DNA from: Candidatus Scalindua arabica | GTDB taxonomy: Bacteria > Planctomycetota > Brocadiia > Brocadiales > Scalinduaceae | DNA: 47,008 nucleotides | Reading direction: 5' to 3' | Assembly: GCA_018263435.1 (NCBI GenBank) | Contig: JAANXD010000027.1 | Location: 19,202 to 66,209, forward strand | Shown here: piece by piece, positions 31,986 through 37,168 of the stretch | Layout: every line of letters begins with the position of its first letter | Numbering within the stretch: position 1 is the first letter of the stretch | The notes under the pieces: generated by a model | The model's database searches: none | Told to the model about the DNA's origin: nothing | Seen by the model: the letters and a program-made list of their open reading frames with translations, nothing else | Position numbers and translations under genes: made by a program

Positions 31986-33608
31986 TTGAAGGTCCTTATA
32001 TCTGATAAATTGTCTCAAGAAGGCATTGATGTTCTTGATAATGTCGATGGAATTCAGATAATTTACAAAACGAATCTGGAACCGGAGGATTTGAAAAAAG
32101 AAATCAGGGATGTTGAAGCTCTCATTGTACGTTCATCAACTCAAGTTACCAGGGAGGTTCTTTCAGAAGCTAAGAAATTAAAGATCATCGGTCGGGCTGG
32201 TATCGGTGTTGATAATATTGATTGTTCTGCCGCTACTGAACGTGGAGTTGTCGTTATTAATACACCCAGCGGCAACGCCACTACAACGGCTGAGCATACT
32301 GTTGCCATGCTCATGTCTCTATCCCGCCACATTCCTCAGGCCGACAAAAGCATGCATCAGGGAGCCTGGGAAAAATCAAAATTCACCGGGACGGAGATTA
32401 CGGGAAAAGTCCTGGGTATATTTGGATTTGGAAATATTGGCAAGATAGTTGCCGACCGCGCTCAGGGTCTCAGAATGAGAGTCCTGGTCAGTGATCCATT
32501 CCTGAATGAACAAATTGCTGCAAAACATGGAGTTGAGCTGGTTTCAAGAGAAACACTTTTCAAACGATCCGATTATATTTCGGTACACGTTCCTCTCAAT
32601 GATGCTACCCATAACTTGATTGACCATGAATCTATTCAGACAATGAAAACCGGCGTTCACATACTTAATTGTGCCCGCGGTGGAATTGTCAATGAATCTG
32701 CACTTCTGGATGGTTTGAACTCCGGAAAGATTGCCGGTGCGGCTATTGACGTATTCGTAGAAGAACCGCCTCAAAAGGATAATCCACTTTTAAAACATGA
32801 CAGAGTTATATGCACACCCCATTTAGGAGCGTCTACAGCAGAGGCGCAGGTCAACGTTGCTATTCAGGCGGCAGAACAGATTAGAGACTATCTTCAGACC
32901 GGAGAAATACGAAACGGGGTAAACTGCCCATCTATCAGTTCAGAAATGCTTAAGCTGCTCAACCCCTACCTGAAGATTTGTGATAAATTAGGCTCTTTTC
33001 AAGGACAAATCTATCGTGAAAATCAGGCTGAAGTCAGTAAATTAACAATCAGCTATTCAGGTTCAGTAACGGACTACGACACCGGAGTATTGACATCCGC
33101 GTTGGTACATGGATTCCTGAATACCATTCTGGATGCATCAGTTAATTTTGTAAATGCACTCAGTCTGGCTGAATCCAGAGGTATTGTGGTTGAAGAGAAC
33201 GTTGTGCATCACGTACAGGATTTTGCCAATCAGATAATCTTTTCAGTTTCTGATAGAAAACAGACTAATCTGATCGCAGGAACTGTATTTGGAAACAAAA
33301 ATTATCGATTTGTGAGATTTAACGACTTTTATCTGGAGGTCATACCGGATGGCTATCTCCTGGTTCTTCATAATTATGACAGGCCCGGGGTAATAGGAAA
33401 AGCCACTTCTATCCTTGGAGATCATAAAATTAATATTTCCCGCATGCAATTGACCCTGGAGAATTCCTTTCAACCCGGATCTGACATATCATGTCTACAG
33501 GAAGCCGTATCCTTTATTAACATTGATCAACCGGCCGATGAAACGGTACAAAAAGAACTTAAACAGTTAGAAAATATTATTGCTGTCCATCAAATCGACT
33601 TGAATTAG
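31986..33608 (+). CDS. serA: D-3-phosphoglycerate dehydrogenase
   Basis: This enzyme catalyses the first step of phosphorylated serine synthesis. The 540-residue long form has the substrate domain (IVRSSTQVT, RAGIGVDNID), the NAD fold with GIFGFGNIGKIVADRAQG (about 145-162), NCARGGIVNESALLDGL, the catalytic His in CTPHLGASTAEAQ, an intervening domain (about 320-450) and a C-terminal ACT domain (VLHNYDRPGVIGKATSIL). The ACT domain implies feedback control, probably by serine. The start is TTG at 31986, decided by AAGGAG at normal spacing; the nearby ATG at 31982 is out of frame. Confidence 0.96.
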   Translation: MKVLISDKLSQEGIDVLDNVDGIQIIYKTNLEPEDLKKEIRDVEALIVRSSTQVTREVLSEAKKLKIIGRAGIGVDNIDCSAATERGVVVINTPSGNATTTAEHTVAMLMSLSRHIPQADKSMHQGAWEKSKFTGTEITGKVLGIFGFGNIGKIVADRAQGLRMRVLVSDPFLNEQIAAKHGVELVSRETLFKRSDYISVHVPLNDATHNLIDHESIQTMKTGVHILNCARGGIVNESALLDGLNSGKIAGAAIDVFVEEPPQKDNPLLKHDRVICTPHLGASTAEAQVNVAIQAAEQIRDYLQTGEIRNGVNCPSISSEMLKLLNPYLKICDKLGSFQGQIYRENQAEVSKLTISYSGSVTDYDTGVLTSALVHGFLNTILDASVNFVNALSLAESRGIVVEENVVHHVQDFANQIIFSVSDRKQTNLIAGTVFGNKNYRFVRFNDFYLEVIPDGYLLVLHNYDRPGVIGKATSILGDHKINISRMQLTLENSFQPGSDISCLQEAVSFINIDQPADETVQKELKQLENIIAVHQIDLN

Positions 33609-33639
33609 ATTTATCAGATTTTCGAGTGTTTTAATTCGA

Positions 33640-34161
33640 ATGGCAAATCAAAATAAGAAACAAGAAAATAACACACGACCATCCTGGGATGATTACTTCA
33701 TGGAAGTAGCTAATGCTATTTCCAAGAGAGCAACTTGTGACCGTGGAAAAAGCGGCTGTGTAATTGCAAAAGACAGACAGCTCATTGTCTCAGGTTATGT
33801 AGGGTCTCCTACCGGTTTCCAGCATTGTGATGAAGCGGGACACCAGATCAAGAAGGTAACACATGAAGATGGTGAGGTTACTGAACACTGCATGCGTACA
33901 GTCCATGCCGAACAGAATGCAATCTGCCAGGCGGCAAGAATCGGAGTTTCAATATCAGGTGCTACTCTCTATACCAGAATGACCCCGTGCAGAACGTGTG
34001 CAATGCTTCTTATCAATTGCGGTATTAAAAGAGTCGTTTGTGAACGGAAATATCACCAGGGAGAAGATTCAGAGAAAATGTTCAAGGAAGCCGGTATCGA
34101 GCTGGTTTATAAATTCAATGAACACCAACAGTACTCAAACAAAAAGGAGAATAATTCATGA
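33640..34161 (+). CDS. dCMP deaminase-like zinc-dependent cytidine deaminase (ComEB type)
   Basis: This 173-residue protein has the deoxycytidylate deaminase pattern: [21 protein letters not shown] at the start, [17 protein letters not shown], then the zinc site [11 protein letters not shown] (His and catalytic Glu) and [15 protein letters not shown] (two Cys). The likely role is dCMP to dUMP for thymidylate synthesis. The downstream flavin-reductase-like gene starts by an ATGA overlap with its stop, suggesting a shared transcript, although no obvious functional link is known. Confidence 0.9.
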
Positions 34162-34748
34162 AGAAATCTTTAGGAGCAAAACCACTCGCCCTTCCAACAC
34201 CTGTCTGGATCGTCGGGACATATGATGCAGAAGGTAAACCAAATGTAATGACAGTTGCCTGGGGCGGGATTTGCTGTTCAAAGCCCGCATGTGTCAATGT
34301 ATCTCTGAGAAAGGCAACTTATACTTATGACAGTATTATTGAGCGTAAAGCCTTTACTGTAAATATTCCATCTGAAAAGCATGTTATTGAAGCCGATTAT
34401 TTCGGGATTGCCACAGGCAGAAAGACAGATAAATTTGCAGCGACAGGACTCACTCCTGTGAAGAGTAAACTTGTTGACGCCCCTTACGTGGATGAATTTC
34501 CGGTAGTATTAGAGTGCCGGATGACCCATAAGGTTGAAATCGGGTTACACATACAATTCATTGGTGAAATAATGGATGTTAAGGCTGAAGAATCTATACT
34601 TGGAGGAGAAAAAGGGCTTCCTGATATTGATAAGGCTATGCCTTTTCTTTACTCTACGGGAAGCCGTACATATCACGGAATTGGAAAACCCCTTGGCCAA
34701 GCATTCTCTATAGGAAAAAAGATACCAGGCTTTAAAGATGAATCTTAG
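34158..34748 (+). CDS. Flavin reductase-like FMN-binding protein
   Basis: This 196-residue protein of the flavin-reductase/DIM6-NTAB fold has the pattern [29 protein letters not shown] (read in parts, about 9-37), [28 protein letters not shown] and [19 protein letters not shown]. These proteins bind FMN and some reduce flavins or act on small aromatic compounds. The substrate is unknown. It overlaps the deaminase gene by 4 bases and is followed by the cupin gene. Confidence 0.87.
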
Positions 34749-34780
34749 GAATTATGGAATTGGAGAATCCAGAACTGGAA

Positions 34781-34798
34781 TCCTCCCGAAAGGGAGGA
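34781..34798 (+). promoter_or_regulatory. Shine-Dalgarno-sequestering hairpin with GAAA tetraloop before the cupin gene
   Basis: TCCTCCC, GAAA, GGGAGGA forms a seven-base-pair stem with a GNRA tetraloop. The 3' arm GGGAGGA (34792-34798) is the ribosome site for the ATG at 34807, spaced eight bases away, and the 5' arm is its exact complement. In RNA this would hide the site, so translation may require melting or ribosomes arriving from upstream. Confidence 0.6.
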
Positions 34799-34806
34799 CA
34801 CTAACC

Positions 34807-35148
34807 ATGGATACAAAAAACATATTTTCAGGCATTAAAAATCAATCACCTGAAGAGATATTTGAGACAATCATCAAGACAAATCAACTTAAAATAGAGC
34901 GAATTGTATCCCATGGACATGCTACTCGAAAAGGATATTGGTATGATCAAGATAACGACGAATGGGTGATCGTACTAAAGGGAAGCGCCGGTTTGATATT
35001 TGAAGGCAATCGCAAAGAAGTCATCATGAAACCTGGTGACTATGTCAACATACCTGCTCACCAGAAACATAGAGTAGAGTGGACTGATGCCAATGAAGAG
35101 ACTATATGGCTGGCCGTCCGCTACCAGAGCGAAACCTGTGAAGTATAA
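34807..35148 (+). CDS. Small cupin-domain protein
   Basis: This 113-residue single-domain cupin has the pattern YDQDNDEWVIVLKGSAGLIFEGN, MKPGDYVNIPAHQKHRVEWTD, giving the usual His/Glu metal-binding set (the first motif here is less complete; the second has PGDxxxIPAHxxHRV). The length and motifs resemble small cupins such as those linked to phosphohydrolases or sugar binding. The ATG at 34807 is chosen over an earlier in-frame ATG at 34738 because the ribosome site GGGAGGA precedes it. The hairpin described at 34781 covers that site. Confidence 0.87.
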   Translation: MDTKNIFSGIKNQSPEEIFETIIKTNQLKIERIVSHGHATRKGYWYDQDNDEWVIVLKGSAGLIFEGNRKEVIMKPGDYVNIPAHQKHRVEWTDANEETIWLAVRYQSETCEV

Positions 35149-35201
35149 CTCTTTTTGGATAGTTACAGATTAAATATAACTTATAAAGGTAGGCTGCTAT
35201 T

Positions 35202-35876
35202 ATGAGTATCAGAGTATTACTTGTATGCAGAGAAGGGATTGCACGTCAAAAGTACCTGGATGCATGCAAGGGATTGGAAGTCTCAATAGATATCGCATCA
35301 ACGTACCAGGAGCTTCTTGATTCAACTATAAACAATCCATACAATGGTATAATGATTGACGTACCAACCAAGCTTAAGGCCCTCAGTATGGATAAGGAAA
35401 GTGCCTCTAATATTTTTAATCTGTTTCCGACACTTCAACTTATTTATAATGAAGAATCCGGTCAGATAAGGACCATTTCCTCCGGACAGAGTAATTCTAT
35501 AGAGACATTTAAAGAGTTTATAACCAAGCGCTGTAATTCCACCAAGGCTAGAACCATCCGTTCAGAACGGAGAAAAGCTGTTGTCTTCAACGTAATCCTA
35601 TCTAAATGCAATGAAGTACGCCACGAAGATGACGAAAAAACTGTAATAATGAATATATCCAGGAGGGGTTGCTTCATATTTTCAAATCATAAATGGGAGA
35701 CAGGCTCCGATGCATGGTTTATAATCAAGGAATTAACAGACCAGACACCTATTCGGGGGCAGGTAAGATGGAGGATTGGTTGGGGTCAGAAAATGTCTGT
35801 ACCCGGCATAGGAATACAGTTTATAGATATTAGTGATAGTCAGTCTAAAGAGATTTGCGATATTGGCAGACTATAG
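35202..35876 (+). CDS. PilZ-domain protein with an N-terminal receiver-like region
   Basis: This 224-residue protein's C-terminal half has the c-di-GMP-binding PilZ pattern: the RxxxR-type SERRKAVVFNV (about 121-131) and NISRRGCFIFSN (D/NxSxxG, about 147-158), then QVRWRIGWGQ and PGIGIQFIDIS. The N-terminal 110 residues begin IRVLLVCREGIARQKYLDACK and resemble a receiver fold without the conserved phosphorylation aspartate cluster, so they may be a degenerate sensor. The protein may relay c-di-GMP status to an unknown target. It is convergent with the DUF3786 gene with a 28-base gap. Confidence 0.8.
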   Translation: MSIRVLLVCREGIARQKYLDACKGLEVSIDIASTYQELLDSTINNPYNGIMIDVPTKLKALSMDKESASNIFNLFPTLQLIYNEESGQIRTISSGQSNSIETFKEFITKRCNSTKARTIRSERRKAVVFNVILSKCNEVRHEDDEKTVIMNISRRGCFIFSNHKWETGSDAWFIIKELTDQTPIRGQVRWRIGWGQKMSVPGIGIQFIDISDSQSKEICDIGRL

Positions 35877-36726: not shown

Positions 36727-36755
36727 AAAATAACTAATCCTCACGCAAAGCCGCC

Positions 36756-36828
36756 GAGTAGGCAAGGGAGAGTTTCACTCCCAAGCCTCTCACAGAACCG
36801 TACGTGACAGTCTCCCGTCATACGGCTC
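36756..36828 (-). ncRNA. Group II intron domains V and VI (3' end of ribozyme)
   Basis: On the minus strand, domain V spans about 36828-36795: GAGCCGTATGACGG paired with CACGTACGGTTC, the catalytic hairpin of bacterial group II introns. Domain VI follows at about 36791-36756: GAGAGGC pairs with GCCT-A-CTC leaving one bulged A (complement of T36759), the expected branch-point adenosine, around an inner GGGAG/CTCCC stem. The intron end lies roughly 20 bases before the DUF3786 ATG. Only the 3' end of the intron remains. Confidence 0.85.
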
Positions 36829-36847
36829 GTGTTATTCTTGATATGCT

Positions 36848-37168
36848 TCAACTGTAGCCCACTTTCCAGTGATAAAACAACTCCGGGTTCGCTTGTCTTA
36901 TCGTTTTGAGTTTTGCCACTGCTTTTCGGTACCCAATCTTGTGCTTCTTCCCTAGCCACTTGACCAGTTTCCGATCTATCAACAGCAACGTGTTTCTCAG
37001 GCTCCTTTTGCTATACTTACCATAATACACTATCCACCCTCGAAGTTTGGCATTAAACAGTTTGGAAATTTCCGATATTTCAACCTTCGTATTACGCCAG
37101 ATATTCATCTCTCTTATCTCTGACCGTATTCTCTTCTGGTTGGATAGGCACATATGATCGATAAGCAA
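36848..37168 (-). pseudogene. C-terminal fragment of a group II intron reverse transcriptase/maturase
   Basis: The 106-residue frame reads SNQKRIRSEIREMNIWRNTK, then LFNAKLRGWIVYYGKYSKRSLRNT, LIDRKLVKWLGKKHKIGYRKA and a final NPELFYHWKVG. This is the maturase-specific domain X of group II intron proteins (RGW-xxYYG-K and the W...L-xx-W-x-K-K pattern). All seven reverse-transcriptase blocks upstream are missing. Its TTG start at 37168 is an artefact of the open frame. The DNA between this fragment and the ftsH promoter (about 40 bases) shows no further intron. Confidence 0.88.

Follow-up and report, generated by a model that had tools for sequence, protein, structure and literature searches.

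The 47,008-nucleotide stretch of Candidatus Scalindua arabica DNA analyzed here (the window) carries a flavin reductase-like gene (FR) followed on the same strand by a short cupin gene, with a compact hairpin between the two (Table 1). A deaminase gene (PF00383) lies upstream of FR and overlaps it by 4 nt. As read from the sequence, seven base pairs join positions 34781–34787 (TCCTCCC) to 34792–34798 (GGGAGGA) around a GAAA loop (34788–34791). The stem begins 32 nt after the FR stop codon (TAG, 34746–34748), and its 3′ arm is itself the Shine-Dalgarno match of the cupin gene, separated from the ATG at 34807–34809 by the 8-nt spacer CACTAACC (34799–34806). A sequence-only reading of this DNA had described the GNRA-capped stem, the placement of the Shine-Dalgarno sequence and both distances, and all are confirmed; the hairpin ends at 34798, and 34807, where that reading closed its interval, is the A of the ATG. 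This ATG is likely to be the cupin start: the N-termini of related cupins (MDIKNIF-like) align from it, although in some of them translation could also begin two codons upstream. Within the window, the pattern TCCTCCCGAAAGGGAGGA, with up to three mismatches, occurs at one place, against 0.01 expected.

Table 1. Features at the junction of FR and the cupin gene (window coordinates)
Feature	Position	Strand	Evidence
Flavin reductase-like gene (FR)	34158..34748	+	Pfam PF01613, E 3.9e-33; element 3′ of FR in several relatives
Intercistronic left flank of element	34749..34774	+	Alignable with relative G011
Unpaired repeat head CTGGAA	34775..34780	+	TGGA in 52/52 pattern-matched copies
Repeat hairpin, 7-bp stem and GAAA loop	34781..34798	+	GAAA in 51/52 genome copies
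3′ arm GGGAGGA, Shine-Dalgarno-like sequence of cupin gene	34792..34798	+	Sequence
Spacer; VOC-loss junction within or adjoining	34799..34806	+	Alignment with G011
Cupin gene, 113 aa	34807..35148	+	Pfam PF07883, E 4.2e-9
Longer in-frame ORF, 136 aa, with ATG overlapping the FR stop end; would traverse hairpin	34738..35148	+	ORF reading

Folding predictions indicate a stable stem. The 18-nt hairpin alone is predicted at −13.0 kcal/mol, and folding of positions 34740–34830 (91 nt), a check proposed in the earlier reading, gave −25.5 kcal/mol (z −3.6; 0 of 200 shuffles were equally stable). Opening the Shine-Dalgarno sequence is predicted to cost 12.7 kcal/mol at 37 °C, rising to 15.4 kcal/mol at 25 °C. 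The inhibitory structure claimed by the sequence-only reading thus stands insofar as a predicted stable stem hides the Shine-Dalgarno sequence; it does not stand as a dedicated regulator of the cupin gene, as discussed below. The thermosensor offered in the same reading is unlikely on prediction, in which the arm stays closed: its mean unpaired probability climbs from 0.0016 at 25 °C through 0.0031 (37 °C) and 0.0085 (50 °C) to 0.06 at 80 °C. A G+C-rich hairpin 3′ of a stop codon might also be taken for an intrinsic transcription terminator after FR. We rejected this as extremely improbable: the hairpin has no T-run, and a scan of 33500–35300 found two terminator-like sites, both inside FR. 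No Rfam family matches the hairpin at gathering score. The sole such match in the window is a group II intron end (RF00029; 36753–36830, minus strand), adjoining a short ORF (36848–37168, minus strand) with a maturase-specific domain (PF08388); the interval 36753–37168 is apparently a broken group II intron between ftsH and a PilZ-domain gene (35202–35876, plus strand) that follows the cupin gene.

A dispersed repeat family in Scalindua

The window's own genome (G000) is a draft of 2.69 Mb in 102 contigs. The 91 nt around the hairpin match ten places in it, the window's included, over 23–51 nt. A search with the pattern CTGGAATCCTCNCGAAAGNGAGG, allowing up to three mismatches, found 52 places, of which 25 are forward and 27 reverse; the reversed pattern, used as a control, found none. 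The copies take the form of a TGGA head followed by a CCTNNC-GAAA-GNNAGG hairpin. TGGA is invariant over the 52 copies, in a search whose pattern contains TGGA and tolerates three mismatches, and all six inner pairs are kept in 50/52 copies when G-U pairs are allowed. Covariation is clearest at pair 11-18, which the search pattern leaves free: it is T-A in 33 copies, C-G in 13, A-T in three, and G-C in three, and is paired in 52/52 against a mean of 33.0 and a maximum of 41 in 2,000 shuffles. The next pair outward, 10-19, is C-G in 43 copies, T-A in seven, and G-C in one, with a single A-G mismatch (51/52 paired; mean 43.3 and maximum 47 in 2,000 shuffles). T34781–A34798, the pair at the outer end of the stem in the window, is not shared by the family as a whole (21/52 paired versus 22.1 expected).

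Inverted pairs hold 22 of the 52 copies, as nine tail-to-tail pairs with a spacing of 25 nt plus two pairs in facing orientation (C7:6468/6496 and C21:40173/40203). By a mechanical overlap test, made without annotation, 43/52 copies lie outside any ORF of at least 100 aa and nine lie inside one, among them the window copy with its 136-aa ORF. The 48-nt tail-to-tail pairs at five loci (L009, L011, L019, L020, and L030) often share more flanking sequence (agctatcattcgt...acatgatcag), which gives the pairs the look of a core within a longer miniature element. At L034 (691–720), the second hairpin of a pair contains a TCATGCCCGAGGCAGATCCGCCTGGGCGGA-like block of roughly 30 nt, with similar blocks at L002, L004, and L057; this block recurs at several sites.

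With up to two mismatches allowed, the repeat is present in 15 of 59 genomes, the window's own included. All 13 genomes of the genus have it (again counting G000), at 2 to 121 copies, as do two of the four in the rest of the family (G013 and G014), while none of the 42 in the rest of the order does; G015–G058 have no match at this threshold. The reversed-pattern control gave 0 matches in 58 genomes and one match in G003. In a scan of named genomes, among the matches listed (at least 80), 60 bear a Candidatus Scalindua or Brocadiaceae title; the other titles among the matches listed are Planctomycetota MAG (seven), uncultured bacterium (one), Clostridia (eight), Paceibacterota (three), and Alphaproteobacteria (one). 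Loci with the repeat under the last three titles are L106, L109, L113, L116, L144, L146, L147, L153, L162, L164, L167, and L179, and such matches may reflect horizontal transfer or mis-binned anammox contigs.

Probable loss of a gene upstream of cupin

G011, whose FR and cupin are closest to those of the window (89.2% DNA identity over 885 nt), carries the identical 23-mer 540 nt 5′ of its cupin gene, followed by an inverted partner and a gene of the VOC fold (PF00903). Its alignment to the window runs at 87% identity over query positions 1–159 (window 34640–34798), ends at the hairpin, and resumes at query position 169 (window 34808). The intercistronic flank aligns between the two genomes, which shows that they share the site of the element. 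A VOC gene stands downstream of FR in 9/12 FR loci (in G001 partially, at a contig end), and it precedes the cupin gene in G015 and G016. It is missing between FR and cupin in the window's genome and in G004. A whole-genome search recovered no VOC relative anywhere in G000, and the same query matched 10 of 17 genomes. Neither a cupin nor a VOC match was seen in G005, G006, and G007; in G007 the contig ends ~410 nt after FR, so that this locus is silent on the VOC gene. A tree of 12 genomes (with the cupin part missing for G001 and G007, and G015 and G016 left out) joins G000 with G011 (support 99) and G004 with G001 (96). Since both sisters have the VOC gene, its losses in G000 and G004 look separate, and by this sequence comparison the gene was probably lost twice.

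The hairpin does not accompany the cupin gene in relatives. It stands intact at the cupin start in 0/11 cupin-bearing relatives, a set from which two weak cupin matches, G021 and G052, are excluded; this outcome, which the sequence-only reading had named as one that would tell against its proposal, goes against a regulatory stem belonging to the gene. G004 has the repeat beside its cupin start, with both arms present but split by an insertion. A dedicated cupin leader, in which the Shine-Dalgarno sequence is opened by temperature or by a switch under protein or ligand control, would account for the stable stem, for the exact placement of that sequence in the 3′ arm at good spacing, and for a cupin gene that is probably still translated (dN/dS 0.36 between G000 and G011). 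It sits poorly with an element dispersed in 52 copies, with its absence from the starts of relatives, with the lack of predicted melting up to 80 °C, and with the lack of an Rfam family at gathering score. The comparison of relatives disfavors such a leader, and we consider it very unlikely.

Dispersal of the family, covariation among its copies, the shared site behind FR in the sister genome, and the absence of the VOC gene from the assembly are all evident at the level of sequence. We consider it highly probable that the hairpin is a copy of a dispersed repeat of the REP type, brought to the cupin start by gene loss. The repeat would first have sat behind FR, ahead of the VOC-fold gene and cupin; the VOC gene, together with the repeat's inverted partner, would then have been lost in the window lineage, a direction of change suggested by the tree, and with that loss the repeat came to abut the cupin start. 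Its 3′ arm would now double as the cupin Shine-Dalgarno sequence. Since the hairpin appears to be a scattered repeat copy that loss of a neighboring gene placed by the start, its position over that start most likely arose by accident as the genome changed, not as a switch built for the gene.

The junction comes from a draft assembly, and one might ask whether short reads fused FR to cupin through a repeat copy. The 102 contigs and the repeated nature of the element would allow this. A false join would, however, need a second copy directly before a cupin gene, an arrangement seen in no relative except, in split form, G004; no VOC gene turns up elsewhere in the assembly; and repeat matches of 23–51 nt are presumably short relative to usual reads. 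An artefact of this kind seems to us highly improbable.

The surroundings of the cupin gene vary on its other side as well. The start of a PilZ-domain gene also follows the cupin gene in G002, and G011 has no PilZ-like ORF at that place; the locus is therefore fluid to the left and to the right of cupin. Behind FR, the window's 23-mer recurs in G014, G009 and G008 have CCA/TGG for the window's CCC/GGG, and G001 has a degenerate repeat copy. REPs can protect mRNA, and the repeat might serve the upstream genes, as an intercistronic REP that shields the deaminase-FR message from 3′ exonucleases while its overlap with cupin is incidental. The presence of the element behind FR in G011, G009, G008, and G014, and its degenerate form in G001, would fit this role, and REPs lie mostly downstream of coding regions according to passages in Di Nocera 2013 (PMC3733652). 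The repeat is, however, unrecognized behind FR in G002, G003, and G012, and hence is not required there. This reading, compatible with placement of the repeat by gene loss, is possible but doubtful.

Predicted consequences for translation of cupin

A stem that covers a Shine-Dalgarno sequence should depress initiation by free ribosomes. It is plausible, on the folding model, that the repeat passively lowers cupin translation, by reducing de novo initiation, and cupin expression may then depend on read-through or re-initiation by ribosomes leaving FR. In G004, where the arms are split, freeing the Shine-Dalgarno sequence is predicted to cost 4.8 kcal/mol, against 12.2 kcal/mol for the window, both computed by one separate script. 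The 13-mer GGATCACCTCCTT, which we take to be the usual 16S 3′ tail, occurs once in G000. A Shine-Dalgarno-like tetramer precedes 12 of the 33 long ORFs in the window, compared to 6.1 expected by shuffling (4/1,000 shuffles reach 12). Such sites therefore appear to be used by some genes and not by most, and with only about a third of the long ORFs carrying one, hiding it may matter less.

Selection on the cupin gene speaks to its expression. Alongside the cupin value given above, the G000–G011 pair has a dN/dS of 0.20 for FR, and the G000–G004 pair 0.16 for cupin; dropped from this analysis were pairs with G002 and the FR pairs between the G000/G011 group and the G002/G004/G001 group, whose dN lay far above what the protein identities allow and was taken as frame-preserving misalignment at an indel. 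The cupin gene thus seems, by these sequence comparisons, to be under purifying selection, which makes some expression likely.

Translational coupling offers one route. FR ribosomes would re-initiate at the ATG at 34738 and read a 136-aa cupin, or their passage would open the stem for the ATG at 34807; on either course the repeat would merely exclude free ribosomes. The longer frame is open throughout; its ATG lies 8 nt before the FR stop, an overlap of 11 nt with FR. The deaminase gene overlaps FR as well, by 4 nt. In G011 the cupin ATG falls 4 nt after the VOC stop, and in seven relatives (G002, G003, and G008–G012) the aligned cupin start is at most 13 nt from the last VOC codon, a spacing that suggests that cupin was once coupled to the VOC gene. 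The two genes lie farther apart in G014, G015, and G016, where the wider spacing weighs against coupling. The ATG at 34738 also lies within the FR coding sequence of G011, where its frame stops after five codons, so it has not been selected as a start, and the cupins of relatives have no such N-terminal extension. Coupling, which can coexist with a repeat placed by gene loss, is in our view a tentative possibility and on balance rather unlikely.

We also asked of 272 distinct copies, which are not a random sample, where neighboring ORFs begin. ORFs that open with ATG and span 80 aa or more show no excess of starts at Shine-Dalgarno distance from the arm: in 10-nt bins starting 3 nt after it (3–12 nt first), the forward counts are 6, 6, 3, 16, 12, 8, 10, 8, 11, and 14, and the reverse counts 1, 4, 5, 4, 6, 6, 11, 5, 7, and 11. 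Allowing ATG, GTG, or TTG gives 12 starts: one among 66 own-genome copies (the cupin), 10 among 150 copies in named contigs, and one among 61 others. Several of the 12 (e.g., L120, L121, and L139) are not credible genes, as they begin inside a neighboring repeat copy; L005, a copy in the window's own genome with an ATG 13 nt away, was set aside too, for it has a better Shine-Dalgarno sequence and start just downstream. The repeat does stand at Shine-Dalgarno distance from a 4Fe-4S protein gene (L117, Scalindua sp. OFTM1) and from an RseC-like gene (L179, in a MAG labeled Clostridia). With these two, the window cupin, and the split-armed cupin of G004 as its cases, one could propose that spread of the TGGA repeat and deletion repeatedly give Scalindua-type genes a self-covered ribosome site that turns a gene down after operon break-up. 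Given the lack of enrichment at ORF starts, a selected general device of this kind is quite unlikely.

A candidate mover and comparison with known repeats

The window's genome has 18 matches to PF01797. One of these, at G000:C88:3103–3627, is assigned by NF047646 (103.5 bits against a cut-off of 80) to the REP-associated tyrosine transposases (RAYTs) and is bracketed by the repeat in both orientations within ~210 nt, plus and minus upstream and minus and plus downstream. In the coordinates of its extracted locus (L207), the copies lie at 1295(+), 1404(−), 2086(−, two mismatches), and 2150(+), around a gene match at 1501–2025. Across 48 transposase loci the repeat is close only at this gene (L051, the same as L207) and at one gene of G014 (L210), with L052 holding a repeat ~1.15 kb from its transposase match; a second, overlapping set of 30 transposase loci contained no further repeat-flanked gene (L283 is the same G014 gene). 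The C88 RAYT has no close relative in the other repeat-bearing genomes (best 39%, in G004), and as a query it finds no match in G005, G006, G011, and G012, four genus members with the repeat. From its bracketing we infer that the C88 RAYT is cognate to the repeat, which was probably spread by a RAYT; the mover may have been lost from most species. At L208 (G004:C18), a transposase gene of the same kind lies amid copies of another repeat, AAGTCTTCAGACTTTTAT-like, and the genus may therefore harbor several pairings of repeat and transposase.

What looked like a regulatory hairpin thereby becomes a dispersed repeat whose arrival on a ribosome site can be traced to the loss of an intervening gene. 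It also directs attention to an anammox repeat family whose head sequence belongs to neither of the tagged REP superfamilies. A limited literature search found nothing on repetitive extragenic palindromic sequences in Scalindua, and on that basis the family would be undescribed so far. The case also counsels caution: before a perfect hairpin over a Shine-Dalgarno sequence is named a switch, the whole genome should be searched for further copies of it.

Hairpins that sequester a Shine-Dalgarno sequence are known from the IS200 transposase mRNA and from the ROSE and fourU thermometers. The window's hairpin resembles them in that an anti-Shine-Dalgarno arm pairs with the Shine-Dalgarno sequence. 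Unlike theirs, its stem is perfect and G+C-rich, with no melting predicted, and it belongs to a dispersed repeat that is not conserved with the gene. For IS200 transposases, an effect on mRNA translation is mentioned in PMC3733652.

The closer comparison is with REP/BIME-RAYT systems. Sections of Nunvar 2010 (PMC2817692) describe REPs headed by GT(A/G)G, together with RAYT genes that have inverted copies on their flanks, and parts of Di Nocera 2013 (PMC3733652) place most REPs in the GTAG and CGTC superfamilies. Like these as so described, the Scalindua repeat is a short hairpin present in tens of copies, mostly outside ORFs, with compensatory changes in its stem, inverted pairs, and one bracketed RAYT gene. 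It differs in its head, which is TGGA where the superfamilies carry GT(A/G)G or CGTC (in the head region, 3/52 copies have GT(A/G)G and 0/52 have CGTC), in a moderate copy number of 52, and in a presumed RAYT that has no close relative in most carriers. As it shares the tested REP features except the tag, we regard the repeat as REP-like, a variant outside the tagged superfamilies. Portions of Di Nocera 2013 (PMC3733652) also treat REP copies at the 5′ ends of ORFs, for which post-transcriptional control was suggested. Like those copies, the window's repeat covers sequence immediately 5′ of what is likely the true start, and, as with them, the 136-aa ORF through it is probably not a real protein. 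Unlike the 5′-end REPs in that account, here the arm itself is the Shine-Dalgarno sequence, and the history of gene loss can be read from relatives.
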